Assembly: GCA_017406005.1 (NCBI GenBank)
Contig: JAFQZI010000143.1
Coordinates: forward strand, 1 to 49,809
From: Oscillospiraceae bacterium
GTDB lineage: Bacteria > Bacillota > Clostridia > Oscillospirales > Oscillospiraceae
Length of the DNA stretch: 49,809 nt
Direction: 5' to 3'
The notes beneath the pieces were generated by a model that was not told the origin of the DNA, searched no databases, and saw only the letters and a program-made list of their open reading frames with translations. Made by a program: the position numbers and the translations under genes. Shown here one piece after another: positions 9,391-41,223 of this stretch (position 1 is the first letter of the stretch; every line of letters begins with the position of its first letter).

Positions 9391-9391
9391 A

Positions 9392-10543
9392 GTGGCAGAT
9401 TGGGTAGTTGTCGTTGATGATGATGTGACCAACCTGAAAATGGCGGGGCATATTCTGAGCAAGCATAACATGCGTGTAACGGCTTTGAAATCCGGGACGG
9501 CTCTGATTGAATACGTTAAAACAAACCAGCCTGACCTTATCCTGCTGGACATTATGATGCCTGGCATGGATGGTTTTGAGACAATGGAAATTCTCAAAAA
9601 GCAGATGGCGCCCGGAAAAGAGATCCCCATTATTTTCCTGACAGCAGATGAAAACCGGGAATCTGAAATGCGGGGCCTTCAGCTGGGAGCAATGGACTTC
9701 ATCCGCAAGCCCTTTGTGCCGGAAGTTCTGGTTCTTCGTGTCCGGCATACGATTGAACTTGTACGCCTCCAGCGGAATCTTGTTCTGGAGAACGAACGGA
9801 TCAGTGCTGAAATTGCATTGGCTTCCCGAATCCAGTTGGCTATGCTGCCCAGTGTTTTTCCGCCTTTCCCGGATCGGCCGGAAATCGATATTTATGCCTG
9901 CATGGATCCGGTTCGGAAGGTTGGTGGAGATTTCTATGACTTTTTCTTTGTGGACGATGACCATCTCTGCCTTGTCATAGCGGATGTGTCCGGCAAAGGA
10001 ATACCGGCTGCCCTGTTTATGATGGCATCCAAAATCGTCCTGGCAGACAGTGCAAAGATGGGCAAGTCTCCTTCCCGGATTCTGGAGGATATGAACGCAG
10101 TCATTTTCGCCAACAACCGTGAGGACATGTTCGTGACCGTATGGGTAGGGATCCTTGAGGTCTCCACAGGCCGTTTGACTGCCGCTAATGCAGGTCATGA
10201 ATATCCGGTGCTGATGAACGACAGCAGGCAGTTTGCATTGATGAAAGATGATCACGGTCTGGTCATTGGCGTCTTTCCTCAGCAGAAATATAAGGAATAT
10301 ACCCTGCAGCTTTCACCCGGGGCAAAGTTGTTCGTATATACTGACGGCGTGATCGAAGCTACCAATAGCATCGGAGAGTTATTCGGAATAACGCGTATGG
10401 TAGAAACACTGAACAGAAATCCCGATGCTTCGCCGAAGCAGGTGCTGTCGGGTATCCGGCAGGCTGTGGATGACTTTGCACAAGGTGCAGAACAGGCGGA
10501 CGACCTGACCATGCTGTGCCTGGAATTCAAAGGAAAATCCTGA
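9392..10543 (+). CDS. Response regulator with PP2C/SpoIIE (RsbU-like) phosphatase output
   Basis: Predicted phosphorylation-controlled Ser/Thr phosphatase. The receiver spans residues 1-120 with acidic 'VVDDD', phospho-acceptor Asp53 in 'LLDIMMPGMDG' and Lys in 'FIRKPF'. A short helical linker ('ERISAEIALASRIQLAMLP') leads to a PP2C-SpoIIE domain with 'KVGGDFYDFF', 'IADVSGKGIPAALFM', 'YTDGVIEATN' and 'DDLTML'. The GTG at 9392 is preferred to a TTG at 9371 because AAAGGGGG lies 8-9 nt before it. The gene sits inside a run of three hybrid kinases and is the only output protein among them. By family it would dephosphorylate an anti-anti-sigma factor, but none is encoded in this window. Confidence 0.92.
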   Translation: MADWVVVVDDDVTNLKMAGHILSKHNMRVTALKSGTALIEYVKTNQPDLILLDIMMPGMDGFETMEILKKQMAPGKEIPIIFLTADENRESEMRGLQLGAMDFIRKPFVPEVLVLRVRHTIELVRLQRNLVLENERISAEIALASRIQLAMLPSVFPPFPDRPEIDIYACMDPVRKVGGDFYDFFFVDDDHLCLVIADVSGKGIPAALFMMASKIVLADSAKMGKSPSRILEDMNAVIFANNREDMFVTVWVGILEVSTGRLTAANAGHEYPVLMNDSRQFALMKDDHGLVIGVFPQQKYKEYTLQLSPGAKLFVYTDGVIEATNSIGELFGITRMVETLNRNPDASPKQVLSGIRQAVDDFAQGAEQADDLTMLCLEFKGKS

Positions 10544-10590
10544 TCACTCATACGATACATCAGAATTCTTAACGGAGAGAGGCGAAGACT

Positions 10591-12912
10591 GTGTTTAATC
10601 GTCTGAAAGAAATCTGGAAAGAGCTCAGCAGAAGTATATTGGTGGGAGAGCGCTACGAGAAGAATATGCGCGGTATCTCGCTTGTCGCGTCGCTGATCGT
10701 CGTTGTAAATATCATAACCGGTTGCCTGAATCTGAAAAACGGTTATTACAGTGCCGCTCTGACCTCTCCCCTTTTCATCTTTGCCGGTTTGCTGATTTTG
10801 TATTTTATTCGCGTAAAGCAAAACAGAGCAGGAGCTGTAATCACCGCACTGATCGCAGTCGTAATCATTTTCACTTATGAAGCTTTCACTGTCACACACG
10901 GCTTTACAATCTTCTGGACATTGCTGCTGCCGCTGGCGTTTTCTTATTTTGCCGATGTCAGAGCAGGCATCGGCCTGTCGCTTTATTTTCTGATATTGTA
11001 CTGGGTTCTGTTTTTTACACCGCTGCGGGAATCTCTCGGCCGCCATTACTCCGACATTATCGCACAGAGATTTCCGATCCTGTACCTGGCAAATGTTATT
11101 CTCACCACATACATCATGGTCCAGTATCACCAGATCACTCTGCACCAGATGGATAATGCCAGGCAGCTGCTGGAAGCAAAAGCAGCCGCCGACCGCTCCA
11201 ATGCAGCCAAGGGCGACTTTCTGGCAAATATGTCCCATGAAATCCGCACACCCATTAATGCCGTGCTGGGTATGAACGAGATGATTCTTCGTGAAAGCAT
11301 GCAGGCAAGAGAACAGTCCGCCGGGGACGCGTCGGATGCCCGTCAAAAGGCATTTGAAAACATCGGTATTTATGCAGGTGATGTAAAAAGCGCCGGAACC
11401 AATCTGCTTGCCATCATCAACGACATCCTGGATTATTCCAAAATCGAAGCGAACAGGATGGAGATTGTCGAAGGAGAGTATAAATTCAGTTCTGTCCTGA
11501 ATGATGTCAGCAATCTGGTTTTTTTCAAAGCGAAGGAAAAAGGTCTCGATTTTCTTGTGGACGTGGATGAAACCATTCCGGACAGCCTGTACGGCGATGA
11601 AGTACGAATTCGCCAGATCATCACCAATATTCTGGGAAATGCAGTAAAGTATACAGAAGAAGGCAGTGTCCATCTATCAGTACGTCAGGAACAAGCCTCT
11701 CCGGCAGAGTCTGATCAAACGATAAGCCTGATTGTTATCGTCAAGGATACAGGCATCGGCATCAGAGAAGAAGATGTCAGCCGCCTGTTCACCAAATTTG
11801 AACGGGTCGATCTGGAACATAACAGTACCGTTGAAGGTACCGGACTCGGCCTGGCTATTTCGCAGGCCCTGGTGGCGATGATGGGCGGGCATATTGGCGT
11901 AGAAAGCGAATACGGGAAAGGATCGACCTTTACTGTTTCTTTGCCGCAGAAAGTGGTCTCTCCGGAACCTCTGGGGAATTACCGTGAGAGATTTGAAAAG
12001 AATGTGCTGGAAACAACGAACTACAGAGAGTCCTTCCACGCACCGGAAGCCCACATCCTGATTGTGGACGATACCCAGATGAACCTTGCCGTAGTCGTCA
12101 GGCTGCTGAAATCCACCGAAATCAGAATTGATACCGCTCCTGGTGGTGAAGAAGCAGTCGCCATGGCAAAGGACACCCCATACGATTTGATTCTGATGGA
12201 TCAACGCATGCCGAACATGGACGGTACGGAAGCCATGCACCGGATCAAAACACAACTTGACGGTGCAAATAACAAAACCCCGATCATCTGCCTGACAGCT
12301 GATGCCATCATCGGCGCAAAAGAGCGGTATATAGCGGAAGGGTTCACAGATTATCTGGCAAAGCCGGTAGATGGCTATTCCCTTGAAAGCATGCTGATGA
12401 AACATCTTCCGGCAGAAAAGATTCAGCGGGTTCAGATTTCACAGCAGACTGATTTGGGGGGCAAGGAAGAAGAAACCGTACAGGCACATGATACAGCCGG
12501 CTTTGCACAGCTCAGTACAGCCGGTATCCAGCCGGAAACCGGTTTAAACTATTGTCAGGGGGATTCGGATTTCTATCGCTCAATGCTGCTGGAATATGCC
12601 CAGAGTGCAAGAGAAAAAATGCCTGACATCCGGCGCAGATATGCTGCTCTGGAATGGAAGGATTATGCCATCCTCGTCCACGCGCTCAAAAGTACATCCA
12701 AAATGATCGGGGCAACCTCGCTGTCAATAATCGCAGCACGCCTGGAAGCCTCTGCAAATCAAAACCAGACGGAGACCATCCAAAGCGAACATCCTCTCAT
12801 GATGAATCAGTATGAAACTGTCGTCAAGGCGATCGAAACACTCTTTGGAGAGCAGAAGCCTGCTCCTGACCTGGAGGAAGACATTCTGGAATTTCTCCCT
12901 GAGGAGGAATAA
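10591..12912 (+). CDS. Hybrid histidine kinase 2 (6TM, HisKA, HATPase, REC, Hpt)
   Basis: Paralogue of the next gene. After a conserved 'ILVGERYEKNMRG' lead, about six membrane helices occupy residues 30-180. The phospho-His is His216 in 'MSHEIRTPINAVLGMNEM'. The ATPase domain has 'NILGNAVKYTEEG', 'DTGIGIREED' and 'EGTGLGLAIS'. The receiver starts at 'AHILIVDDTQMN' with acceptor Asp in 'LMDQRMPNMDG', and the Hpt domain shows 'LVHALKSTSKMIGA'. The protein ends in the acidic tail 'DILEFLPEEE'. It starts with GTG, preceded by GGAGAGAGG, 47 bp after the phosphatase gene, and is followed 5 bp later by kinase 3. A 464-codon frame on the other strand is a shadow. Confidence 0.93.
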   Translation: MFNRLKEIWKELSRSILVGERYEKNMRGISLVASLIVVVNIITGCLNLKNGYYSAALTSPLFIFAGLLILYFIRVKQNRAGAVITALIAVVIIFTYEAFTVTHGFTIFWTLLLPLAFSYFADVRAGIGLSLYFLILYWVLFFTPLRESLGRHYSDIIAQRFPILYLANVILTTYIMVQYHQITLHQMDNARQLLEAKAAADRSNAAKGDFLANMSHEIRTPINAVLGMNEMILRESMQAREQSAGDASDARQKAFENIGIYAGDVKSAGTNLLAIINDILDYSKIEANRMEIVEGEYKFSSVLNDVSNLVFFKAKEKGLDFLVDVDETIPDSLYGDEVRIRQIITNILGNAVKYTEEGSVHLSVRQEQASPAESDQTISLIVIVKDTGIGIREEDVSRLFTKFERVDLEHNSTVEGTGLGLAISQALVAMMGGHIGVESEYGKGSTFTVSLPQKVVSPEPLGNYRERFEKNVLETTNYRESFHAPEAHILIVDDTQMNLAVVVRLLKSTEIRIDTAPGGEEAVAMAKDTPYDLILMDQRMPNMDGTEAMHRIKTQLDGANNKTPIICLTADAIIGAKERYIAEGFTDYLAKPVDGYSLESMLMKHLPAEKIQRVQISQQTDLGGKEEETVQAHDTAGFAQLSTAGIQPETGLNYCQGDSDFYRSMLLEYAQSAREKMPDIRRRYAALEWKDYAILVHALKSTSKMIGATSLSIIAARLEASANQNQTETIQSEHPLMMNQYETVVKAIETLFGEQKPAPDLEEDILEFLPEEE
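12877..12911 (+). repeat. 35-bp exact direct repeat, copy 1 (end of kinase 2)
   Basis: Identical to 15222-15256. It encodes the 'EDILEFLPEEE' tail and contains GAGGAGG, which serves as ribosome site for kinase 3. The rest of the two genes differ more, so this end is unusually conserved. Confidence 0.85.
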
Positions 12913-12917
12913 CCGCG

Positions 12918-15257
12918 ATGGCACTCTTGCACAGGGTATGGTGTTCTCTGATCAGTTCCGTCATGGATACATGGAGGTTGCTGGACAGATCTATCTTTGT
13001 CGGTACACGATATCAGAAAAATATGCGGGGCATGGGGATTGTATCTCTTGTAATCATTATCGTCGGGACGATTATGTCTGTCTTAAATATCGTGCAACGG
13101 TATTATCAAACTTTAATTGTCTCTCTGTGTATCGTTTTCGTCGGCTGTCTGATGTACTTTTTTGTCAAAGCCAGGAAAAACAGGGAAGCTGCTTCATTCA
13201 CTGCACTTGTTTTTGCCGTCGCAATCTTCACTTATGTGACTATCACTGGAACGATGAATGGTTTTGCGATCCTCTGGACAACGCTGATCCCGCTGATCGT
13301 CTGCTATTATTTCAACGTCAAATACGGTATTTTTCTGTTCTTATATTTTGAAATTCTGTTCTGCATTCTGTTTTATACACCGTTGCGCCAATTGCTGGAA
13401 AACTATTATACTACCACGATGATGAACCGTTATCCAATCCTATATTTTTCGCTGGGAATCATCACTTCCTTCTTTATGATACAATATCACAAAAGCATCC
13501 TTGACCAGATGGACTATGCAGAGCAGCTTCAAAAGTCGAAGGATGAAGCAGAACGTTCTAATGCCGCCAAAAGTGATTTCCTGGCAAATATGTCCCATGA
13601 GATTCGTACCCCTATCAATGCTGTCCTCGGCATGAACGAAATGATTCTCCGCGAAAGCCTTCAAGGGCGTGATCTTCTGGCTTCGGAACATGCAGATATC
13701 AGTGAGATGTTTTCCTATATCAGTGTTTGTGCCGGGAATATTGATAGTGCCGGGAATGGCCTGCTATCCATCATTAACGACATTCTGGACTTTTCCAAAA
13801 TTGAGGCCGGAAAACTGGAAATTGTGGAAAGCGAGTATAGACTGAGCTCTGCTCTGAATGACATGACCAATATGATTGCATTCAGAGCAAAAGACAAAGG
13901 ATTGGAATTCAGGGTCGATGTAGATGAGACTTTGCCGGATAGCCTGTATGGAGACGAAGTGCGAGTGCGGCAGGTTATCACCAACGTTCTGAATAATGCC
14001 GTTAAGTATACCAAAGAGGGCTCGGTTACTTTATCTGTGAACAGAGAAAATATCATTGAAATCAAAGCAGGCGACCAGATTTGTCTCGTGGTTTCTGTCA
14101 GTGATACCGGCATCGGCATTAAGAAAGAGGATTTTGATAAGCTGTTCGGAAAGTTTGAGCGCCTCGATCTGCAGCAAAACAGCACCGTGGAAGGTACTGG
14201 ATTGGGCTTAGCTATCTCTCAAAGGCTTTTGGAAATGATGGGCGGAAGTATTAAAGTAGAAAGTATTTATGGTCGTGGCTCCGTATTCACTATTATTCTC
14301 CCACAAAAGGTCGTTTCTACAGAACCTGTTGGGAACTTTCGTGAAAAATTTGAGAAGAGCATTCTTGGGATGCAGGCGTATAAAGAACCTTTTCGTGCAC
14401 CGGAAGCTCATATTCTGATTGTGGATGATACTCGGATGAATCTGGCCGTGGCGGTTGGTCTTCTGAAAGGCTCGGAAATCAAGATCGATACAGCAACCAG
14501 CGGCCCCGAATCCATTAATCTGGCCAGGCAGAACCACTATGATCTTATCCTGATGGACCAGCGTATGCCGGAGATGGATGGTAGCGAGACCTTGCGTTAT
14601 ATTCACGGGCAAGCAGAAGGAATCAATCGGGAAACGCCGATTATTTGTTTGACTGCGGATGCAATCAGCGGTGCCAGAGAGCGTTATCTGGCAGAGGGTT
14701 TTACAGATTACCTGTCAAAGCCTATCGACAGTCTTGCACTGGCCAGAATACTGATCAAATACCTTCCAAAGGAACTTGTAATCCCTGCGGAAAAAACGGA
14801 GTATGAAAAAACATCTGATAACGTCGAATCTGTTTTCACAGATAATGATTTATTGTCGTGTCAAAGAGCGGGTGTAAACACGAACATCGGCCTGCAATAC
14901 TGCCAGAACGACAAAGAACTTTACCTCTCTATTCTTTGTGAATACGTAAAGTGCTCCGGGCAAAGGCTGAAAGATCTCCAGCGTTGTTTCGAGACAAGCG
15001 ACTGGAAGAATTATGCTGTTCTGGTTCATGCACTTAAAAGTACTTCAAAAACGATCGGTGCAGTCCCACTGTCTGAAACAGCGGCAGAGCTTGAAAGTGC
15101 CGCAAACCGGGAATATGCAGTGATCATCCAAAGTATGCATGATTCGATGATGCAGACTTACAGTTCTTTGGCCGATACCCTGGGGAAAATCCTTGGAATA
15201 ACTGGCCCAATGTCGGATGATGAAGACATTCTGGAATTTCTCCCTGAGGAGGAATAG
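12918..15257 (+). CDS. Hybrid histidine kinase 3 (6TM, HisKA, HATPase, REC, Hpt)
   Basis: Tandem paralogue of kinase 2 with the same layout: 'IFVGTRYQKNMRG' lead, six membrane helices (about 38-190), phospho-His227, ATPase motifs ('NVLNNAVKYTKEG', 'DTGIGIKKED'), receiver with 'LMDQRMPEMDG', and Hpt with 'LVHALKSTSKTIGA'. It too ends in 'DILEFLPEEE', with an identical DNA stretch of 35 bp at both gene ends (12877-12911 and 15222-15256). In the upstream copy this stretch supplies the GAGGAGG ribosome site for this gene. All catalytic residues are present, so both copies look active. The different sensor loops suggest divergence in the signal detected. Confidence 0.93.
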   Translation: MALLHRVWCSLISSVMDTWRLLDRSIFVGTRYQKNMRGMGIVSLVIIIVGTIMSVLNIVQRYYQTLIVSLCIVFVGCLMYFFVKARKNREAASFTALVFAVAIFTYVTITGTMNGFAILWTTLIPLIVCYYFNVKYGIFLFLYFEILFCILFYTPLRQLLENYYTTTMMNRYPILYFSLGIITSFFMIQYHKSILDQMDYAEQLQKSKDEAERSNAAKSDFLANMSHEIRTPINAVLGMNEMILRESLQGRDLLASEHADISEMFSYISVCAGNIDSAGNGLLSIINDILDFSKIEAGKLEIVESEYRLSSALNDMTNMIAFRAKDKGLEFRVDVDETLPDSLYGDEVRVRQVITNVLNNAVKYTKEGSVTLSVNRENIIEIKAGDQICLVVSVSDTGIGIKKEDFDKLFGKFERLDLQQNSTVEGTGLGLAISQRLLEMMGGSIKVESIYGRGSVFTIILPQKVVSTEPVGNFREKFEKSILGMQAYKEPFRAPEAHILIVDDTRMNLAVAVGLLKGSEIKIDTATSGPESINLARQNHYDLILMDQRMPEMDGSETLRYIHGQAEGINRETPIICLTADAISGARERYLAEGFTDYLSKPIDSLALARILIKYLPKELVIPAEKTEYEKTSDNVESVFTDNDLLSCQRAGVNTNIGLQYCQNDKELYLSILCEYVKCSGQRLKDLQRCFETSDWKNYAVLVHALKSTSKTIGAVPLSETAAELESAANREYAVIIQSMHDSMMQTYSSLADTLGKILGITGPMSDDEDILEFLPEEE
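15222..15256 (+). repeat. 35-bp exact direct repeat, copy 2 (end of kinase 3)
   Basis: Second copy of the repeat that ends kinase 2. Here the embedded GAGGAGG has no start codon at proper distance, so translation coupling does not explain its conservation in this copy. Confidence 0.85.
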
Positions 15258-32025: not shown

Positions 32026-33087
32026 TCACTCGCCCAGATTGAAACACTCCTTTTTGAAAAGTCTGAGTTCCAGCTGATAAAGCCGCGAAGTCACGTTTAC
32101 GGCTTCCTGGATGATCTCATCCAGCGTGGCAGCCGGACAGGCTGCGTTTGCGTTCAAAACAACCGCAATGTCGGTGCAGGGGTTTTCAAAGCGACGCGTA
32201 ATCTCGATCGGGCGATTCACACCGAGCAAATCCACTTTGCCGTAATCTCCCTCCGGTTCCCAGGCCAGCAGCTTCATATGGGGAATCTCATAGTCCCATG
32301 CCTGCAGCTCCGCCTGCACCATACGGGCGATGTCGGAAAGATATTCAGTGCCGTCAAAGTCGTTGCAGCAAACCTGAGCAACGTATTCCAGATAATACTC
32401 GGTCAGCTGATCCATGGCATTCTGCAGATTCTTGTCCTCATAGTCAATGTCAGGATGCTTCATCGACGCCTTGTCCCGAATCAGAGCCTGGGAAAGCTCT
32501 TCAAGTCCTTCCCCTGTCATAGCGCTGATCGTAATGACGCTGGCCTTCGGATAGTGATCGGCAAGCCACGCCCTGTCCGCTTCCAGCTCTGCCGGTTCAA
32601 GCAGATCGCGTTTATTAAGCACGATCAGGTCTGCCTCCATCAGCTGTGCGTGCAGGATATACGCCATATCGTCTCCCTGCCCGCTCCTCAGGATTTCTGC
32701 ATTCCTCGGTTCGATAAGTACCGTGAAGGGTCCGAGATCAAACTGATCAGGATATTCTTTGCTCAGTCCATGATAGACATGCTCGAGCGCCCCGACGCCG
32801 AAGCCGGGAATATCCGAAACAACAAGATCACAGCCACTGTCATAATATTCGTTCAGTCTCTGAGTCAATACGTCATGGCAGAAACAGATGCATTCGTTGG
32901 TAATCTGGGACGCATTCACGCCGCTGAGCCTAGCCAGCCGGTCATCGGCCAATGTCACGCCTTCCCCCAGATCATTAGAGATCATGGCGGCTTTACCATG
33001 ATAGGCACTGTAGTACCTGGTCAGGGCCATCATGGTCGTGGTCTTCCCCGATCCGAGGAAGCCGCTGAATACTGCAAATTTTCTCAT
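32026..33087 (-). CDS. CobW/HypB-like GTPase (G3E family)
   Basis: Predicted metal- or cofactor-linked P-loop GTPase. Walker A 'GFLGSGKTTT' lies at residues 9-18, then 'MISNDLGEG' and 'VVSDIPGFG' as switch/Walker B, and 'LNKRDLLE' as the guanine-specificity motif. In COG0523 proteins a CxCC metal site follows the P-loop; here the matching segment reads 'ECICFCHD' (Cys66, 68, 70), a CxCxC variant. Residues 210-353 are a C-terminal domain I do not recognise. It is divergent from a transporter gene and shares an overlapping promoter region. Metal or client protein is unknown. Confidence 0.8.
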   Translation of the reverse strand: MRKFAVFSGFLGSGKTTTMMALTRYYSAYHGKAAMISNDLGEGVTLADDRLARLSGVNASQITNECICFCHDVLTQRLNEYYDSGCDLVVSDIPGFGVGALEHVYHGLSKEYPDQFDLGPFTVLIEPRNAEILRSGQGDDMAYILHAQLMEADLIVLNKRDLLEPAELEADRAWLADHYPKASVITISAMTGEGLEELSQALIRDKASMKHPDIDYEDKNLQNAMDQLTEYYLEYVAQVCCNDFDGTEYLSDIARMVQAELQAWDYEIPHMKLLAWEPEGDYGKVDLLGVNRPIEITRRFENPCTDIAVVLNANAACPAATLDEIIQEAVNVTSRLYQLELRLFKKECFNLGE

Positions 33088-34407: not shown

Positions 34408-34656
34408 ATGAAAAACGAAAAAAACTATAATGAATCACCATTGACGCCTGAACAGCTGGAAACCATTTCAGGTGGTATGATTGTGGATGACGGGGACGGG
34501 AAGAAGTTCTGGCTTGTGCGCCAGAACGGGACTGTTATCTCTCCGGTTCCCGGATTGGAAAATGCTGTGGAATTTGCAAAAGCCTATAGGGAAAGCACCA
34601 GAGTCGTCACCCAGGAAGAGTATAAAAAACTCTTCGGAAGAGATCTCGTCTGGTAA
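34408..34656 (+). CDS. Double-glycine-leader peptide (bacteriocin-like precursor)
   Basis: Small protein of 82 residues with an N-terminal leader ending in 'LTPEQLETISGG' (residues 12-23), the pattern cleaved by C39-peptidase exporters in class II bacteriocins and RiPPs. The remaining 59 residues are mixed: 'KKFWLVRQNGTVISPVPG', a helical 'ENAVEFAKAYRES' and 'EEYKKLFGRDLVW'. It has no Cys and few clustered Ser/Thr, so it is not a usual lanthipeptide. The ATG at 34408 follows GGAAAGGGG; an in-frame ATG at 34345 lacks one. No peptidase, ABC exporter or modification enzyme lies nearby. It precedes two cyclic-nucleotide-binding genes in the same direction. Confidence 0.72.
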   Translation: MKNEKNYNESPLTPEQLETISGGMIVDDGDGKKFWLVRQNGTVISPVPGLENAVEFAKAYRESTRVVTQEEYKKLFGRDLVW

Positions 34657-34766
34657 CTTTACAGAAAGCTGAATATGTGGTAATATGCTTTTAATTGCGA
34701 CAGGTATTCGATGAATCATATGCCATATTATCCCAAACAATAATTGGAATCAAAAAGGAGATCCGT

Positions 34767-35162
34767 ATGGAAACAAAAACATTCAGAAAAAACGAAGTCA
34801 TTTTCGAAAAAGGTGCTCCCGGCGACTGCATGTATGAAGTAGACAATGGAAAGGTTGGCATTTATTCCAACTACGGAACACCGGAACAGAAGCTTCTGAC
34901 GGAGTATTTCCCGGATCAGTACTTCGGTGAAATGGGTCTGCTGGATCATGCACCCCGCTCCGCTACCGCAGTTGCCATGGAGGACGGGACCTGCCTCACT
35001 CCTGTTACCGAAGATGGTTTTGAAGCCTATTTCAAAGAGAATCCGATGCGTGTAGTAATGGTGGTGCAGCAGCTGAGCCACAATCTCCGGAAGAGAACAA
35101 ACGAATATATAGACGTCTGTGGTAAGATCAAGGAACTGACAGAAAAGGAGGCTCAGGCATGA
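34767..35162 (+). CDS. Stand-alone cyclic-nucleotide-binding protein 1
   Basis: Single CRP/PKA-like cNMP-binding domain of 131 residues. The phosphate-binding cassette 'FGEMGLLDHAPRSATAVA' (53-70) has Gly54, Glu55 and Arg64-Ser65-Ala66, the ligand-binding set. A short C-terminal helix (about 95-130) follows; there is no helix-turn-helix, kinase or channel domain, so it cannot act as a CRP-type DNA binder by itself. AAAAAGGAG precedes the ATG at 34767. It overlaps the next gene by ATGA. Ser65 is at the position where cGMP-dependent kinases have Thr, but CRP also has Ser, so ligand is not settled by this. Confidence 0.88.
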   Translation: METKTFRKNEVIFEKGAPGDCMYEVDNGKVGIYSNYGTPEQKLLTEYFPDQYFGEMGLLDHAPRSATAVAMEDGTCLTPVTEDGFEAYFKENPMRVVMVVQQLSHNLRKRTNEYIDVCGKIKELTEKEAQA

Positions 35163-35632
35163 AAGTAAACGAATACAGAAAAGACGAAGTGATTTTCCGG
35201 CAGGGGGATTATGCAACCACCTTTTACAGGATTCTCGGCGGCAATGTCGGTGTATTTGTCTTCTACGGCACAGAAAATGAAAAGCAGCTGACCACCCTTC
35301 ACGAGGGCGAGTATCTCGGAGAAATGGCTATTATTGAAGCCTATCCCAGAAGCGCAACTGCGGTTGCCCTGGAAGACGGAACAAAACTGGAAGAAATCGA
35401 TGAAAAAGAGTTTTCCGATTATTTCTCCGATCGCACAGGAGACCTGCTCCAGATTATGCGTCAGATGGCCCAGCGCCTGAGAGACCGCACAGACGATTTT
35501 GAAGATGCATGCCGCACGCTCGATGAGCTTCAGAAGACCTCCGGAGAGCCGGAAAAGCGCAGCAAATCTCTGATGGATAAAATCATGGAAGCCATCTACA
35601 TCTATAATGAGGCTATGTACATCGAGCGCTGA
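35159..35632 (+). CDS. Stand-alone cyclic-nucleotide-binding protein 2
   Basis: Tandem paralogue of the preceding protein, 157 residues. The cassette 'LGEMAIIEAYPRSATAVA' keeps Gly54, Glu55 and Arg64-Ser65-Ala66 at the same numbers. The C-terminal helix is longer and charged ('RQMAQRLRDRTDDFEDACRT' region, then 'SLMDKIMEAIYIYNEAMY'), possibly a coiled-coil or partner-binding element. No DNA-binding domain is present. Start overlaps the stop of protein 1, implying fixed stoichiometry and perhaps a heteromer. Confidence 0.88.
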   Translation: MKVNEYRKDEVIFRQGDYATTFYRILGGNVGVFVFYGTENEKQLTTLHEGEYLGEMAIIEAYPRSATAVALEDGTKLEEIDEKEFSDYFSDRTGDLLQIMRQMAQRLRDRTDDFEDACRTLDELQKTSGEPEKRSKSLMDKIMEAIYIYNEAMYIER

Positions 35633-35681
35633 CCATTCAGTGTGCAGAATTATTTTATAAACGATATACCAGATACGTTTT

Positions 35682-35714
35682 CGGCTTTCGTCCTGCGGGG
35701 CGAAAGCCGTCTTT
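35682..35714 (+). terminator. Hairpin between cNMP-binding gene 2 and the cyclase
   Basis: Perfect 9-bp stem (35682-35690 with 35701-35709), 10-nt loop, followed only by TCTTT. It may be a weak terminator or attenuator that lets part of transcription enter the cyclase gene. Confidence 0.55.
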
Positions 35715-35732
35715 GAATGACAGGAGAACCAG

Positions 35733-37163
35733 ATGGATCGAGAACAGCAGATACAAAACCGCATTATTTCTGATCTCTCGGAAGGGGTCATGGTGATACG
35801 CTTTGACGGCGTGGTCGAGTATGTAAATGACGCAGCTTTGACCATTCTTCACAAAAAGCCGGAAGATCTCATAGGGCTTTCCTTTGCACGGGCTTTTTTC
35901 ACGGATGTGAATAATGATACCTTTATTCAGTGTGCACTTGATGTGATCTACCGGAAGGCAAGAAGGCATGAATGCTATGTGCCCTATAACACAGGTGAAA
36001 CAACCAGACAACTTCGTATAGTTTCCTCCTACCTGACAGACGGGGATACTGCGACCGGAATCATTTTCGTTATCAGTGACATCACGGAGCTTGAGGAACT
36101 GCGGGACGCTGTAAAGGCTATGGAGACCATTCGCGGTCTTAATCAGCAGCTGGAAATGCGTAATCAGCTCCTGCAGGAAACTTTCGGCAGATATCTGTCC
36201 GACGATATCGTGCGTGAGATTCTGGAAGCGCCTGACGGATGGAAGCTGGGCGGGCAAAAAAGGAAACTGACCGTCCTGATGAGTGACCTTCGTGGCTTTA
36301 CTGCGATGTCGGAACGCATGAGACCGAAAGATCTGATTGACATGCTGAACCATTATTTCGGTGAGATGTACGAGGAGATCATGCGTTACCATGGCACACT
36401 GATTGAGTTTTTGGGTGACGGTATGATGGTTATCTTCGGTGCTCCCGCTGCGACGGACACGCATGCCGCTGACGCTGTTGCTGCTGCCGTTGGTATGCAG
36501 AAGCGGATGCCTGCATTGAACCTCTGGAATGTGGAACACGGTTATGAACCGCTCGGCATGGGTATCGGCATTAACACCGGCTCTGTCATTCTAGGGAACA
36601 TTGGCTCAGAGCGCCGTACAAAGTATGGGGTGCTCGGGGCAGTCGTAAACCTGGCAGGAAGAATTGAGAGCTATACCACCGCAGGACAGATTCTGATCTC
36701 TCCGGACACCCGCAAAGCCATCCGTGAAAAACTGGAGATTGGGGAGACCATCCATGTCTCTCCCAAGGGTGTAACCGGAAAGATCGCCCTCTCTGAAGTC
36801 ATCGGTATCGGTGATCCTTACGGCGTAAGGCTGGAGGAGAGCTTTTCCTGCGAACTCCAAACACTGGAAACCCCGGTTCCTGTATCTTATATGGTTTTGG
36901 AAGACAAGGCAGTCGATGACGAGGAACAGAATGCTGTCATCCTCGCGCTCTCAGAGGCGGAAGCTGTTCTGGAAACGGATGTGCCCCTTGTACCATACCA
37001 GAATCTGTGTCTTGAGATCGGCGGAAGCCTGTATGTCAAGGTGAAGGAAACGGACGGCACCCGCTCCCGGATTTATTTCACGGCCAAACCTCCCTGTTTC
37101 AAAGCCTGGATGGAACAGGCTGTGGCAGTAGCCTCTGTCGTGCAGGAGGGTTCAGAAACATGA
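35733..37163 (+). CDS. PAS-class III nucleotide cyclase, predicted guanylyl-type
   Basis: Soluble sensor-cyclase of 476 residues. A PAS domain (about 10-120) leads through a helical linker (120-160, ending 'FGRYLSDDIVREIL') to a class III catalytic domain (176-355). Metal ligands Asp185 ('LMSDLRGFTAMSE') and Asp229 ('EFLGDGMMV') and the transition-state pair Asn306/Arg310 ('VVNLAGR') are intact. At the purine site, adenylyl cyclases have Lys; here it is Glu225, as in guanylyl cyclases, with Lys297 and Gly299 in 'TKYGVLG'. Residues 370-476 form a C-terminal domain I do not recognise, perhaps PilZ-like. AGGAG precedes the ATG; its end overlaps the MBL gene. Confidence 0.9.
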   Translation: MDREQQIQNRIISDLSEGVMVIRFDGVVEYVNDAALTILHKKPEDLIGLSFARAFFTDVNNDTFIQCALDVIYRKARRHECYVPYNTGETTRQLRIVSSYLTDGDTATGIIFVISDITELEELRDAVKAMETIRGLNQQLEMRNQLLQETFGRYLSDDIVREILEAPDGWKLGGQKRKLTVLMSDLRGFTAMSERMRPKDLIDMLNHYFGEMYEEIMRYHGTLIEFLGDGMMVIFGAPAATDTHAADAVAAAVGMQKRMPALNLWNVEHGYEPLGMGIGINTGSVILGNIGSERRTKYGVLGAVVNLAGRIESYTTAGQILISPDTRKAIREKLEIGETIHVSPKGVTGKIALSEVIGIGDPYGVRLEESFSCELQTLETPVPVSYMVLEDKAVDDEEQNAVILALSEAEAVLETDVPLVPYQNLCLEIGGSLYVKVKETDGTRSRIYFTAKPPCFKAWMEQAVAVASVVQEGSET

Positions 37164-37975
37164 CGAAACCGGTATTTCAACTCACGGTGCTTGGTTCACG
37201 CGGATCCATGGCATCCGGCCGGGCAGACTTTGCACTTTTCGGAGGCGATACCTCCTGCTATATGGTTCGTGCCGGCGATGAAACCGTATTTCTCGATGCC
37301 GGCAGCGGCATTGTGACGGCTCCTGCAAGTTATCCGAAGCCTCCTGTGATTCTTCTCTCCCACCTGCATCTTGACCATGTTATGGGGCTGGGGATGTTCC
37401 CCGGCCTCTCAAACAGATCGCAGAAAAGTACCCTGTATATTCCGTTCTGTGCAGATGCTGCTCTGGCGGAAGCAAAGATGGACCGGGTTTTTATCCCTCC
37501 TGTCTGGCCTCTGAAACTGACTGAACTCGAGGGTGATTTAATGATCCTGCCGATGCCGAAATCTCTGAAAATCGGTTCACTCCAGGTAGATTCGATACCC
37601 GGCTGTCATCCGGATGGCTGCCTTGTTTTCCGGCTTCGCTATCTGGGAAAAACCATCGTCTATGCAACAGACTTTGAAGCTTCGGAGCCTTCCTTCTCTG
37701 CTTTGGCCGCTTTTGCTGAAAAAGCGGATCTCCTCTTGTATGACGCTCAGTTCGATGAATCGGAATATGAAAGTAGGAAAGGCTTCGGCCACTCAACCGC
37801 TGCGAAAGGGCTGGAACTCATGCAAAACAGCGGCGCAAAACAGCTTCTGCTGGTTCACCATGCCCCGGGCAGTACCGACACTATCCTCTTGCAGCGGGAA
37901 AAAAAGCTTCCGAATGTCAATGCCTCCTATGCCCGCGAAGGGCAGACCATTACTCTCCTCGGTGAACCGGACTGA
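37160..37975 (+). CDS. MBL-fold metallohydrolase, candidate cyclic-nucleotide phosphodiesterase
   Basis: Metallo-beta-lactamase-fold hydrolase of 271 residues. Metal site 'SHLHLDH' (67-73: His68, His70, Asp72, His73), His150, Asp171 ('YATDFE') and His211 ('GFGHST') complete a binuclear site like RNase Z or class II phosphodiesterases. The N-terminal 'LGSRGSMASGRADFALFGGDTSCYMV' pattern (residues 11-36) matches the RNase Z-like branch that includes phosphodiesterases for cyclic nucleotides. It overlaps the cyclase stop by ATGA, so the pair are co-translated; a role in degrading or resetting the cyclase product is inferred from that. Confidence 0.82.
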   Translation: MTKPVFQLTVLGSRGSMASGRADFALFGGDTSCYMVRAGDETVFLDAGSGIVTAPASYPKPPVILLSHLHLDHVMGLGMFPGLSNRSQKSTLYIPFCADAALAEAKMDRVFIPPVWPLKLTELEGDLMILPMPKSLKIGSLQVDSIPGCHPDGCLVFRLRYLGKTIVYATDFEASEPSFSALAAFAEKADLLLYDAQFDESEYESRKGFGHSTAAKGLELMQNSGAKQLLLVHHAPGSTDTILLQREKKLPNVNASYAREGQTITLLGEPD

Positions 37976-38108: not shown

Positions 38109-38112
38109 CTCG

Positions 38113-38279
38113 CCCAAGATAGAGGCGCGAGGTTCATCAGTACGCTCCAGGTCGGAAGCAGCATCTTCCGGAGCCGAAAGGGGACATCGCCGAAGCGGGA
38201 ATAAGCGGCTGCGCTTTTCTCAGCTGGGTCGCCGGACAATATCCGGCGGACTGTCACGTAAGTGGAGCGCTATCGAGTA
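38113..38279 (+). promoter_or_regulatory. Lysine riboswitch (L box) aptamer
   Basis: Contains the conserved L-box words in order: GATAGAGGCGCGA (38118-38130), AGTA (38139-38142), CCGAAAGGGGA followed by TCGCCGAAGC, GCTGGGTC, GACTGTCA and TGGAGCGCTATC (38263-38274). P1 pairs GATAG with CTATC. Order and spacing match B. subtilis lysC leader as I recall it. When lysine binds, the terminator at 38338 should form and stop transcription of the transporter genes. Confidence 0.93.
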
Positions 38280-38337
38280 CAAAAGCCCGTTTCCGGTTCC
38301 TGCAGGCCGAAATCGGTAAGTTATATCTGCTTTTTGT

Positions 38338-38415: not shown

Positions 38416-39255
38416 ATGAACACTTCCAGAAGATTTTTATCCATGATCCTTGCTCTGCTTTTTTTATTGTCTTTTGCCGTCGCCGCTTCTGCGGAACCGG
38501 CTGATGATCTCGCCTATCTCAACAGCCAGCTCCGTGTCGGCATGGAGTGTGCCTATGCCCCCAGCAACTGGCAGGAATCCGAAGCCTCCGAAACTAACGT
38601 TCCGATTGAGAATGTCCCCGGTGCCTACGCGGAAGGCTATGATGTACAGATCGCCCGTATCGTGGCGGATTATCTCGGTCTTGAACTTGTCATTGTGAAG
38701 ATGGATTGGGACGGCCTGATTCCCGCTCTGAATGAAGGACAGATCGATGCTATCATCGCTGGCATGGCAGACACCGCAGCCCGTCGCGAAGCCATTAACT
38801 TCTCCGATCCGTACCACTCCACGATTTACGGCATGATGGTCAATGCCGGCTCTCCCTTTGAAAATGCCACCAGCATTCAGGACTTCAGCGGTGCCAGCGT
38901 CCTCGGTCAGAGAGACACAATGCTCGACGTTGTGATTGATCAGATTGAAGGAGTCAACCACTTGACAGCCGTTGCAAGCGTGCCCGATATGATAGCCCGT
39001 CTTAACCAGGGTGCCTGCGATGCCATCACTGTTAACATGGAAAGCGTTCCGGTTTATCTCGCAGCCAACCCCGATTTTGTTGCCATCAGTTTTGCGGAAG
39101 GACAGGGCTTTGATCTCGGCTTTACCGGTTCCTGCATTGGCCTTCGCCAGAGCGATGAAGCGCTGCTTGCACTCGCAAACGAAGCCCTTGCCACTGTCGA
39201 TCAGGAGACCCGCGACGCCATGTGGGACACTGCTGTGAACAGCCAGCCCGCCTGA
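38416..39255 (+). CDS. Amino-acid ABC transporter substrate-binding protein (predicted lysine)
   Basis: Periplasmic-binding-type family 3 protein of 279 residues. Signal peptide 1-26 (basic start, hydrophobic 8-22, cleavage after 'AAASA'-like 'VAASA'). The mature part has 'LRVGMECAYAPSNW', 'GYDVQIARIVADYLGLEL' and 'ALNEGQIDAIIAGMADTAARREAINFSDPY', typical of polar amino-acid binders. The lysine riboswitch upstream points to lysine or a related basic amino acid. Oddly, no lipobox Cys is present although binding proteins of single-membrane bacteria are usually lipoproteins. Co-directional permease, ATPase and peptidase genes follow. Confidence 0.92.
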   Translation: MNTSRRFLSMILALLFLLSFAVAASAEPADDLAYLNSQLRVGMECAYAPSNWQESEASETNVPIENVPGAYAEGYDVQIARIVADYLGLELVIVKMDWDGLIPALNEGQIDAIIAGMADTAARREAINFSDPYHSTIYGMMVNAGSPFENATSIQDFSGASVLGQRDTMLDVVIDQIEGVNHLTAVASVPDMIARLNQGACDAITVNMESVPVYLAANPDFVAISFAEGQGFDLGFTGSCIGLRQSDEALLALANEALATVDQETRDAMWDTAVNSQPA

Positions 39256-39272
39256 GCAGAATAAAAAAGCTT

Positions 39273-39304
39273 TTTGCCCCGGAGCCGTATAGCTCCGGGG
39301 CAAA
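39273..39304 (+). terminator. Strong hairpin between binding-protein and permease genes
   Basis: Perfect 13-bp stem (39273-39285 with 39292-39304), 6-nt loop, followed by GAAAGG, not T-rich. More likely an mRNA-stabilising or processing stem that keeps binding protein more abundant than permease than a terminator. Confidence 0.75.
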
Positions 39305-39321
39305 GAAAGGAAATACCGGTT

Positions 39322-40461
39322 ATGAAACAACAATCCGGGACCAGTTTTCTCACCCGTGATTATCGCTATCTTTATCTTGGCGGAAGTATCCTCGCACTGC
39401 TTGGGCTCAGCCTGTTGAACAGAGAGGCACATCCATACAGCTTTCTGACGGTTTCAAACTTGCCCGGCACGATTTGCAGTGTGATCTTCTGGGCTTTTCT
39501 TGCATTCAGTGCTGTAGCATTGGTTGTCAAGCTCTCTCACTGGAAGAACTACTCCGATACCGTTATGAAGCATCCTTCCGTTGTCCGTGCAAGTCGCTGG
39601 GCCTCTTATCCGGTAGCCGTTGCCTGCATCCTGGTCCTGTTCGACCGCGTGCTGCTTCGGTTTGTGTATACAGTGAAGCTGTGTGTAGGGCTGGAGAAAA
39701 ATCCTCAGAACTTCGGATCTTCCATGATTTATATGAGCCTGAAGGGGAAAGATATGCTTCTCACGGGTATCTGGACAACTGTCCGGATTGCTCTTTTGGG
39801 TACTGCAATTGCTTTTATTCTTGCAATTCTCATGGTCTTCCTCCGGATTCAGGAACCTGATAAAAGGGATAATGATGCCGTCAAAGCCCTGAAATGGATT
39901 GCCAGCCATTTCGCCCGGGTTTATGTGTTTGTCATACGCGGCACCCCCATGATGGTGCAGGCTCTGATTTTCTATTATTTTGGTTTCAATCTTTTCAAGC
40001 GTACCAGTATGACCGTTACCGAGATCAACCACGTCTGGAGCTTTTTCATCTCCGGTCTGTGCACAGTTTCGCTCAACTCCACCGCTTACCTTACTGAGGT
40101 CCTGCGCGGAGGAATTCTGGCGGTTGACAAAGGCCAGACGGAGGCTGCACGCTCTCTTGGCATGACCAATTGGCAGACGATGATCCGTGTGGTGTTCCCG
40201 CAGGCTGTGAAGAATTCCATACCGGCTATCGGCAACGAATTCATTATCAACATTAAGGATTCTTCCGTGCTTTCGGTCATCGGTGTGATGGATCTGATGT
40301 ATGCTACGAAATCCGTTAGCGGCATCTATTTCCGTTCTCTGGAAATCTATTGTGTTGCGGCTATCCTGTACCTGATTCTGACCTGGTTGTCCTCGCTTCT
40401 GCTCCGCTGGCTGGGCAAAAAGCTGGATATGCCCGTCAAAGGTATTCCCAGTTCAAATTAG
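39322..40461 (+). CDS. Amino-acid ABC transporter permease (predicted lysine)
   Basis: Integral membrane subunit of the importer, 379 residues. The core (about residues 135-370) has the His/Glu-type permease helices and the EAA loop 'GQTEAARSLGMTNWQTMIRV'. 'FVIRGTPMMVQALIFYYFG' is a further hallmark. The N-terminal 130 residues add about three helices beyond the usual 220-residue permease. ATG 39322 has AAAGAAAGG upstream and is chosen over an in-frame ATG at 39274 that would read through the hairpin. It is 12 bp before the ATPase gene. Confidence 0.92.
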   Translation: MKQQSGTSFLTRDYRYLYLGGSILALLGLSLLNREAHPYSFLTVSNLPGTICSVIFWAFLAFSAVALVVKLSHWKNYSDTVMKHPSVVRASRWASYPVAVACILVLFDRVLLRFVYTVKLCVGLEKNPQNFGSSMIYMSLKGKDMLLTGIWTTVRIALLGTAIAFILAILMVFLRIQEPDKRDNDAVKALKWIASHFARVYVFVIRGTPMMVQALIFYYFGFNLFKRTSMTVTEINHVWSFFISGLCTVSLNSTAYLTEVLRGGILAVDKGQTEAARSLGMTNWQTMIRVVFPQAVKNSIPAIGNEFIINIKDSSVLSVIGVMDLMYATKSVSGIYFRSLEIYCVAAILYLILTWLSSLLLRWLGKKLDMPVKGIPSSN

Positions 40462-40473
40462 AGGAGATCCAAT

Positions 40474-41223
40474 ATGGATGAATGTGTGCTGAAAATCGAA
40501 AAGCTGGAAAAATCCTTCGGAGACCTTCATGTTCTCAAGGGCATCGATCTCGAAATACAGAAGGGCGAGGTCGTCTGTATCATCGGGGCCTCGGGTTCGG
40601 GAAAATCCACATTGCTGCGCTGTATCAATCTTCTGGAGGAAGCGGACTCCGGCTCCATCTGGTTTGACGGACAGAATCTGATGGATCTTCATGTCAACCT
40701 CAATGCACTCCGCCAGAAGATCGGCATGGTCTTCCAGAGCTTTAATCTTTTCAATAATAAAAATGCGCTTGACAACTGTACGCTCGCTCCCATGACGGTA
40801 CGTAAAATTTCCCGCGCCCAGGCGGAGGAGACAGCAATTCGCAATCTCAAAACCGTCGGGCTCGGCGATTTTATCTATGCGGATTCCACGCGTCTCTCCG
40901 GCGGGCAGAAACAGCGTGTCGCCATCGCCCGGGCACTGTGCATGGAGCCTGAGATCATGCTGTTTGATGAGCCAACCTCCGCACTCGATCCCGAAATTGT
41001 CGGTGAAGTACTTGATGTTATGAAAGAACTTGCTGCCGAAGGCATGACCATGGTGGTTGTGACGCATGAAATGGCTTTCGCCCGCGAGGTGAGCGACCGG
41101 GTTGTCTTTATGGACCAGGGTGTCATTCTGGAACAGGGCAGCCCGGAGGAGATATTCGTTCATCCGAGGAATGACCGCACAAGAGAATTCCTCAGCCGTT
41201 ATCTGGAGGACAAGGATCCATGA
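40474..41223 (+). CDS. Amino-acid ABC transporter ATP-binding protein (predicted lysine)
   Basis: Energising subunit of the importer, 249 residues. Walker A 'GASGSGKST' (38-46), Q-loop '[10 protein letters not shown]', signature 'LSGGQKQR', Walker B '[12 protein letters not shown]', and switch His in 'VVTHEM'. These are the exact patterns of polar amino-acid ATPases (GlnQ/HisP type). GAGGAG lies before the ATG. Its stop overlaps the start of the peptidase gene. Confidence 0.95.

Follow-up and report, generated by a model that had tools for sequence, protein, structure and literature searches.

A predicted cyclase-receptor-hydrolase locus and its described counterparts

Signalling by cyclic GMP (cGMP) in bacteria rests on few described cases, such as those of Xanthomonas, Rhodospirillum centenum, Sinorhizobium Clr and the cyanobacterial cyclase Cya2. 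Among the listed matches of a search of open-licence papers, none described a cGMP system in Clostridia. Here, we analyze a 49,809-nucleotide (nt) stretch of an Oscillospiraceae genome (contig JAFQZI010000143.1 of assembly GCA_017406005.1; hereafter, the window). Positions 34767–37975 encode two stand-alone cyclic-nucleotide-binding (CNB) proteins, a PAS-class III cyclase and a metallo-β-lactamase (MBL)-fold hydrolase, which we interpret with moderate confidence as a compact four-gene module for a cyclic mononucleotide, most likely cGMP.

Each of these proteins has a described counterpart. The cyclase shares its catalytic domain, the base-selecting Glu and the FGRY linker motif with Cya2 (PDB 2w01). 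Both proteins also extend C-terminally beyond the catalytic core, a likeness in presence only (PMC5995499). Cya2 is linked to the membrane through CHASE2, whereas the window cyclase has a soluble PAS sensor and is encoded alongside receptor and hydrolase genes. Linkage of a class III guanylyl cyclase to a CNB receptor gene is known from Xanthomonas XC_0250/XC_0249 (PMC3770947), but that system combines a TPR cyclase with a CNB-GGDEF receptor that contacts the base through Glu, in contrast to the bare CNB proteins with Thr and the MBL gene of the window. The hydrolase has the [T/S]HXHXDH motif, the PF12706 family and the MBL fold in common with Rv1339, YhfI and CpdA (PMC9293780), and YhfI is its nearest PDB sequence. 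It differs from these enzymes by a distant sequence that falls below the equivalog score and by belonging to a kind found in or near cyclase operons, with a predicted activity. Two tandem CNB domains also characterize the regulatory pairs of the protein kinases PKA and PKG. Some relatives of the window CNBs are single two-CNB proteins, and apicomplexan PKG chains share the PRSAT cassette with them. Unlike these pairs, the window CNBs are separate genes with a CRP-type lid helix and come without a kinase or known partner. The CNB fold, the Gly-Glu...Arg-Ser phosphate cassette and the long lid helix connect them to the CRP family (E. coli CRP, Clr), from which they differ by having no helix-turn-helix (HTH) domain.

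A preliminary description of the window had noted five open reading frames (ORFs) between 34408 and 37975; all five are open, lie on the + strand and start and end where they were placed. This observation is confirmed, and the accompanying interpretation as one operon for synthesis, sensing and removal is partly supported. The last four ORFs encode CNB1 (34767–35162, 131 residues), CNB2 (35159–35632, 157 residues), the cyclase (35733–37163, 476 residues) and the hydrolase (37160–37975, 271 residues). The domain calls hold as well, with two PF00027 domains, PAS_9 plus Guanylate_cyc, and Lactamase_B_2 all scoring over the Pfam cut-off. The ATGA overlaps of CNB1 with CNB2 at 35159 and of the cyclase with the hydrolase at 37160 are real. 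The last four genes have three junctions and not four as had been counted; two of these are overlaps, and at the third, 100 nt that contain a strong hairpin separate CNB2 from the cyclase. A single operon may be too simple a description in view of this hairpin between the receptors and the cyclase. Base composition gave no sign of horizontal transfer (GC 0.48–0.53 in the module genes, 0.48 in the window).

We conclude that this gene set is more than a chance arrangement because relatives of CNB1, CNB2, the cyclase and the hydrolase recur together in other genomes, because the active-site residues are invariant, and because nonsynonymous divergence (dN) is low compared with synonymous divergence (dS). 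Against the nearest relative, locus L040, CNB1, CNB2 and the cyclase show dN values of 0.16–0.18 and near-saturated dS values of 1.1–2.0. With dN at about one thirteenth to one sixth of dS, these three genes are under purifying selection. In the comparison with L148, a dS value was obtained for one of the three. The nearest variants of the set are CNB-CNB-cyclase in L040 and CNB1-CNB2-MBL, side by side, in L148 from a congener. The preliminary description had proposed a search for the set in related genomes: partial sets do recur, but the complete CNB-CNB-cyclase-MBL order was seen only in the window. Genes on the related loci were called by a home-made picker based on amino acid composition and were not curated.

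Active-site and ligand residues of the encoded proteins

The cyclase contains PAS_9 and Guanylate_cyc domains, the latter (E 3e-28) spanning residues 177–336 (36261–36740, + strand). The nearest PDB chains by sequence are 6fht, a Cya2-based chimera, and 2w01, Cya2 of Synechocystis. A Foldseek search with the AlphaFold model of the cyclase (mean predicted local distance difference test score, pLDDT, 77; predicted TM-score, pTM, 0.57) also placed Cya2-based chains first, and the model matches 2w01 with a TM-score of 0.94–0.95 on the target at 48–49% identity. The metal ligands Asp185 and Asp229 are present together with Asn306 and Arg310, which we take to be the transition-state Asn and Arg; all four are the same in all rows compared. 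E225 aligns with the base-selecting Glu of 2w01 and is the equivalent of Cya2 Glu488. At this position, 6fht is printed with the Lys of the adenylyl variant of Cya2. Cya2 is a guanylyl cyclase, and the E488K exchange converts it into an adenylyl cyclase (PMC5995499). The window cyclase is thus predicted by homology to be a guanylyl cyclase of the Cya2 type.

The two base positions divide the related cyclases. All 14 full-length PAS-type rows, the window included, carry E and G, whereas all 32 long CHASE2-like rows (29 distinct loci) carry K and T; the CHASE2-like N-terminus was assigned by BLAST, and by Pfam only for the cyclase on contig C25 of the window's assembly. L140, from another family of the class, encodes a further Glu-type cyclase. 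A short class III cyclase from the congener G536 (L084, 9454–10221) has Asp at both positions, and the same congener has a CNB-CNB-MBL run on another contig. The C-terminal domain of the window cyclase (residues ~376–472; 36858–37148, + strand) is modeled by AlphaFold as a series of β-strands with a last helix, at pLDDT values mostly above 80, and found no match in Pfam (E up to 10) or in a PDB sequence search. A PilZ-like barrel was considered from the strand order only and is not claimed.

CNB1 (E 7.6e-19) and CNB2 (E 1.7e-17) contain PF00027 and no other domain over the cut-off, in agreement with the earlier remark that the receptors have no DNA-binding domain; neither has an HTH. Their phosphate-binding cassettes read FGEM...PRSATAVA in CNB1 and LGEM...PRSATAVA in CNB2, and the ligand motif G54-E55...R64-S65 of CNB1 can be compared with G85, E86, R95 and S96 of Clr (PMC10127613). 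Both receptors thereby combine the CNB fold with Gly, Glu, Arg and Ser/Thr ligand residues. CNB1 is 71% identical to its relative in L040 and 53–55% identical to those in L148. The AlphaFold model of CNB2 (mean pLDDT 82, pTM 0.67) has a lid helix of 34 residues (93–126) followed by a further helix (136–155), and its Foldseek matches are CNB structures of the CRP and PKG types. Two CNB domains are fused in one protein in L077 and L079 (329–335 residues) and in L140 (309 residues), and CNB1 and CNB2 hence resemble the two halves of a split tandem CNB protein. One Cys of the lid helix (C118 in the window) is invariant in 16 CNB rows of one alignment and missing in 2 of 10 sequences added later (L140_ta, L148_2), which makes it near-invariant overall.

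The hydrolase matches Lactamase_B_2 (E 2.4e-14; PF12706, 53.8 bits, cut-off 27), its motif SHLHLDH fits the [T/S]HXHXDH pattern of atypical class II phosphodiesterases, and the nearest PDB sequence is 6kns, that of YhfI. Residues H68, H70, D72, H73, H150, D171 and H233 are invariant in 37 of 37 sequences, including that of the window. The window hydrolase groups with the MBL protein of L148, which is encoded beside a CNB pair in the same genus, and with that of L142 in a clade with 100/100 support. YhfI prefers cAMP and cGMP as substrates (PMC9117128), and Rv1339, which belongs to this group, degraded both 3',5'-cAMP and 3',5'-cGMP (PMC9293780). From these relationships the protein is predicted to be a cyclic-nucleotide phosphodiesterase of the atypical class II.

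Linkage and distribution in related genomes

The preliminary idea that synthesis and sensing are genetically linked is borne out by comparison. Of 15 Glu-type cyclases, 13 have a CNB gene on the same strand no more than 3 kb away, as opposed to 2 of 46 Lys-type loci (p 1.6e-9). Omitting the window and three loci that had been found through their CNB in an order sample (L034–L036), 9 of 11 Glu-type cyclases still have such a neighbor (p 3.1e-7). Flanks are no longer than about 1.6 kb at 15 of the 46 Lys-type loci; the same comparison restricted to the 31 long-flanked ones, one of which has a CNB, gave p 1.2e-6. The duplicate loci L112, L116 and L118 were dropped before counting, and the Asp/Asp cyclase of L084 is in neither class; 44 of the Lys-type loci combine K/T with a CHASE2-like N-terminus, and two (L135, L136) have the Lys only, without such an N-terminus. 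The two Lys-type loci with CNB genes are L085, with two (72 and 68 bits) that carry GGDEF and DUF2225 domains, and L128, with one (85 bits) that is cut by the locus end. At L085 (5119–10089) the adenylyl-type CHASE2-like cyclase is followed by MBL, CNB-GGDEF and CNB-DUF2225 genes, a link to cyclic di-GMP.

Full-length Glu-type cyclases are rare. We found them in 8 of 400 genomes of the family. Sampling 341 genomes across the class yielded only that of the window's own genome, plus a shorter relative of the Glu type in G834. The order sample contributed three further loci through their CNB, and a one-sequence scan of named genomes added three loci from metagenome-assembled genomes titled Oscillospiraceae, Lachnospiraceae and Erysipelotrichia. 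The sample names of the first two point to ruminants (roe deer omasum, water buffalo rectum), and by analogy with these named relatives the window's genome is probably of gut origin. The CNB family (E <= 1e-35) occurs in 17 of 390 family genomes: in 8 of 8 with a full-length Glu-type cyclase, the window's own included, and in 9 of 382 others.

The hydrolase follows class III cyclases in general. Among the 400 family genomes (assumed to be the same for cyclase and MBL searches), 36 have both a class III cyclase and this MBL family, 5 only the cyclase, 4 only the MBL and 355 neither (Fisher p 2.6e-41, uncorrected for relatedness). Cyclase matches of the other type occur in 38 family genomes; the MBL is present in 34 of these, and in 26 it shares a contig with the cyclase at a distance of no more than 12.6 kb. 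In each of the 26 distinct loci with both genes, the two lie on one strand, but 20 of the compared stretches were picked from MBL-holding genomes, mostly with the MBL on the contig of the cyclase, and the rate to be quoted is 26 of 38 genomes. This co-occurrence, together with a phosphodiesterase lineage that includes cAMP- and cGMP-cleaving members, supports by comparison the removal arm of the circuit that had been proposed.

In the window's assembly, two cyclases exceed the Pfam cut-off, and there are four CNB domains. The second cyclase belongs to a cluster on contig C25 (L039, 7452–15499) that encodes, on one strand, CHASE2-SpoIIE, FecR, MBL, GAF-HD and CHASE2-cyclase proteins. Its MBL protein is 37% identical to that of the window, and its cyclase carries the adenylyl-type K/T pair. 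Both cyclase types were read from their residues in G000 (the window's own genome), G549, G051 and G032, and a second cyclase match of 145–153 bits, judged by score, occurs in G422, G731, G705 and G694. Glu-type cyclases often share their genome with a circuit of the adenylyl type. This separate CHASE2-type cluster with its own MBL suggests that two parallel circuits may exist. We put forward, as a tentative possibility, that some gut Clostridia run a CHASE2 adenylyl circuit beside a PAS guanylyl circuit, with a separate MBL phosphodiesterase for each of the two in the window's genome, and that the guanylyl circuit is read out through effector-less tandem CNBs as bacterial counterparts of the PKA regulatory subunit.

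The surroundings of the CNB genes vary. Recurring neighbors include an SDF symporter (three loci, adjoining the CNB in two), Big_2 surface proteins (two loci), a TIM-barrel protein whose gene adjoins those of CNB and cyclase or lies between them in L078, L079 and L081 (Pfam was run on that of L078 only), and a DJ-1/SUV3 block near the CNBs of L038 and L077; other neighbors occur in two or three loci. At L078 (4090–6903) a SpoIIE phosphatase with HATPase lies 51 nt upstream of a CNB-CNB-TIM barrel-cyclase run and might provide a partner-switching output. An iron-only-hydrogenase-domain/MCP protein and a PAS-Rce1 protein directly precede CNB, CNB and Glu-type cyclase genes at L041 (379–3333). 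CobW-type GTPases are encoded near the CNB genes of both congeners (window, 32026–33087, − strand; L148, 6447–7403, + strand). Elsewhere in the window, three hybrid histidine kinases stand in a run with Hpt and a receiver-SpoIIE phosphatase (6994–15257, + strand), and a lysine riboswitch (38112–38280, + strand; Rfam RF00168, 88.3 bits) precedes ORFs resembling an amino acid ABC transporter (38416–41223), which suggests lysine uptake.

Proposed mechanism and competing explanations

We propose that a signal at the PAS domain would set the activity of the soluble cyclase, which would make cGMP from GTP as a Cya2-type enzyme. The split tandem pair of CRP-type CNBs would bind cGMP, probably in the form of a dimer held together by the long lid helix. 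This dimer would change shape and bind or free a protein partner in the manner of the PKA regulatory subunit; an output through changed partner contacts is suggested by the fact that neither CNB protein has an output domain. Hydrolysis of the messenger to the 5'-monophosphate by the MBL enzyme would then reset the system. A perfect inverted repeat ahead of the cyclase start (35682–35709, + strand; arms CGGCTTTCG...CGAAAGCCG) resembles an attenuator or terminator. Folding of the CNB2-cyclase gap gave z −2.41 in the window (4 of 200 shuffles as good) and z −3.83 in L040 (1 of 200). Among the 152 loci compared, L040 is the only independent one with the exact repeat; a terminator scan did not list it. 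The hairpin may attenuate cyclase expression and might thus hold it below that of the receptors.

Several observations weigh against this proposal. Where E. coli CRP has Ser128, CNB1 and CNB2 both have Thr, and neither has the cGMP-type Glu of XC_0249. Nine of the 17 genomes with the CNB family have no Glu-type cyclase; G536 has the Asp/Asp enzyme, G641 a K/T cyclase and G627 no strong cyclase match, whereas G337, G184, G071, G674, G692 and G720 have CNBs and fall outside the 99 cyclase matches, although it was not established that each of these six was in the 400-genome cyclase sample. CNBs of this kind are hence not tied to Glu-type cyclases alone. Of the 15 Glu-type cyclases, only that of the window has an MBL gene within 3 kb, with several contigs ending shortly past the cyclase, and the Glu-type genomes G422, G466 and G694 (78, 95 and 81% complete) gave no MBL match. 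The window hydrolase reaches 54.9 bits on the NCBIfam model for cyclic nucleoside monophosphate (cNMP) phosphodiesterases (NF041851, cut-off 400), which marks it as related and not as an equivalog, and it scores higher, 64.3 bits, on ribonuclease Z (cut-off 293). No gene for an output partner is common to most of the 32 CNB stretches (the window and 31 loci). Finally, the estimated contamination of the assembly (174 contigs, 92.9% complete) is 6.6%, and the C25 circuit could therefore be foreign to the window's genome.

The Thr residues bear on an explanation that we consider rather unlikely, namely that the messenger of the module is cAMP, or that cAMP and cGMP serve equally, with CNBs that are cAMP or dual receptors and are also fed by the CHASE2 adenylyl-type cyclase. 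Ser or Thr at the Ser128 position goes with cAMP and Glu with cGMP (PMC11224242), and 25 of 26 CNB sequences compared have Thr or Ser there. Clr has Thr140/141 and binds both ligands (PMC10127613), which fits a dual receptor and is equally a precedent for cGMP binding. The K/T cyclase of the window's assembly and the presence of the CNB family in G641 favor cAMP further, but the CNB genes stand beside Glu-type cyclases (13/15) and rarely beside Lys-type ones (2/46: L085, L128). The ligand of the receptors, which may be cGMP, cAMP or both, is the main risk for a cGMP module. A stand-alone CNB at L033 (9507–9980) has Asn at this position, a residue tied to cUMP recognition in PycTIR (PMC11224242). 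The ribonuclease Z score, far below its cut-off, and a weak NCBIfam match to PhnP would fit a general hydrolase of the RNase Z/PhnP type that merely shares a transcript with the cyclase. We regard this as improbable given the co-occurrence with class III cyclases over 400 genomes, the proximity on the same strand, and a motif and fold group shared with known cNMP phosphodiesterases.

Very little speaks for a Pycsar-like anti-phage system using cCMP or cUMP. PADLOC models of PycC and PycTIR do give matches, of at best 72.7 bits for the cyclase and of 52.3 bits for CNB2, but such matches are expected of class III cyclases and CNB domains generally; they cover only the CNB part of the receptors, which have no transmembrane or TIR effector, and the same model gives a higher score, 95.9 bits, for the CHASE2 cyclase of the window's assembly. 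E225 and L227 occupy the offsets from D229 at which EaPycC has Arg142 and Gln144 before the metal ligand Asp146, a comparison that covered the cytidylate cyclase. A dedicated phosphodiesterase would presumably also disarm a defense system. We rejected this candidate after the PADLOC and residue comparisons. Least credible of all is a circuit in which an exported double-glycine peptide tunes the cyclase. The preliminary description had counted the 82-residue peptide ORF (34408–34656, + strand; ...LTPEQLETISGG) as a member. The ORF adjoins the module on the same strand with a 110-nt gap, and the assembly encodes one C39-peptidase protein (contig C146). The peptide has no family match in Pfam or NCBIfam, and its only relative in the own assembly and 168 related loci, apart from the window's own copies, is a paralogue of 62–63% identity at a contig end (G000:C6:5-199; L098, L152), beside unrelated genes. 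No peptide gene precedes CNB1 in L040, and the peptide is likewise absent from L148 and the other related loci. We therefore rejected it as a member; it is probably only a neighbor.

If the proposed cGMP module is real, a cluster of maker, receptors and eraser would extend cGMP signalling to gut Clostridia, where this messenger is hardly known. The module would offer a ready set of four testable proteins and point to receptors in search of an output partner. The split in base-selecting residues between the cyclase clades, sometimes within one genome, makes their specificity directly testable.

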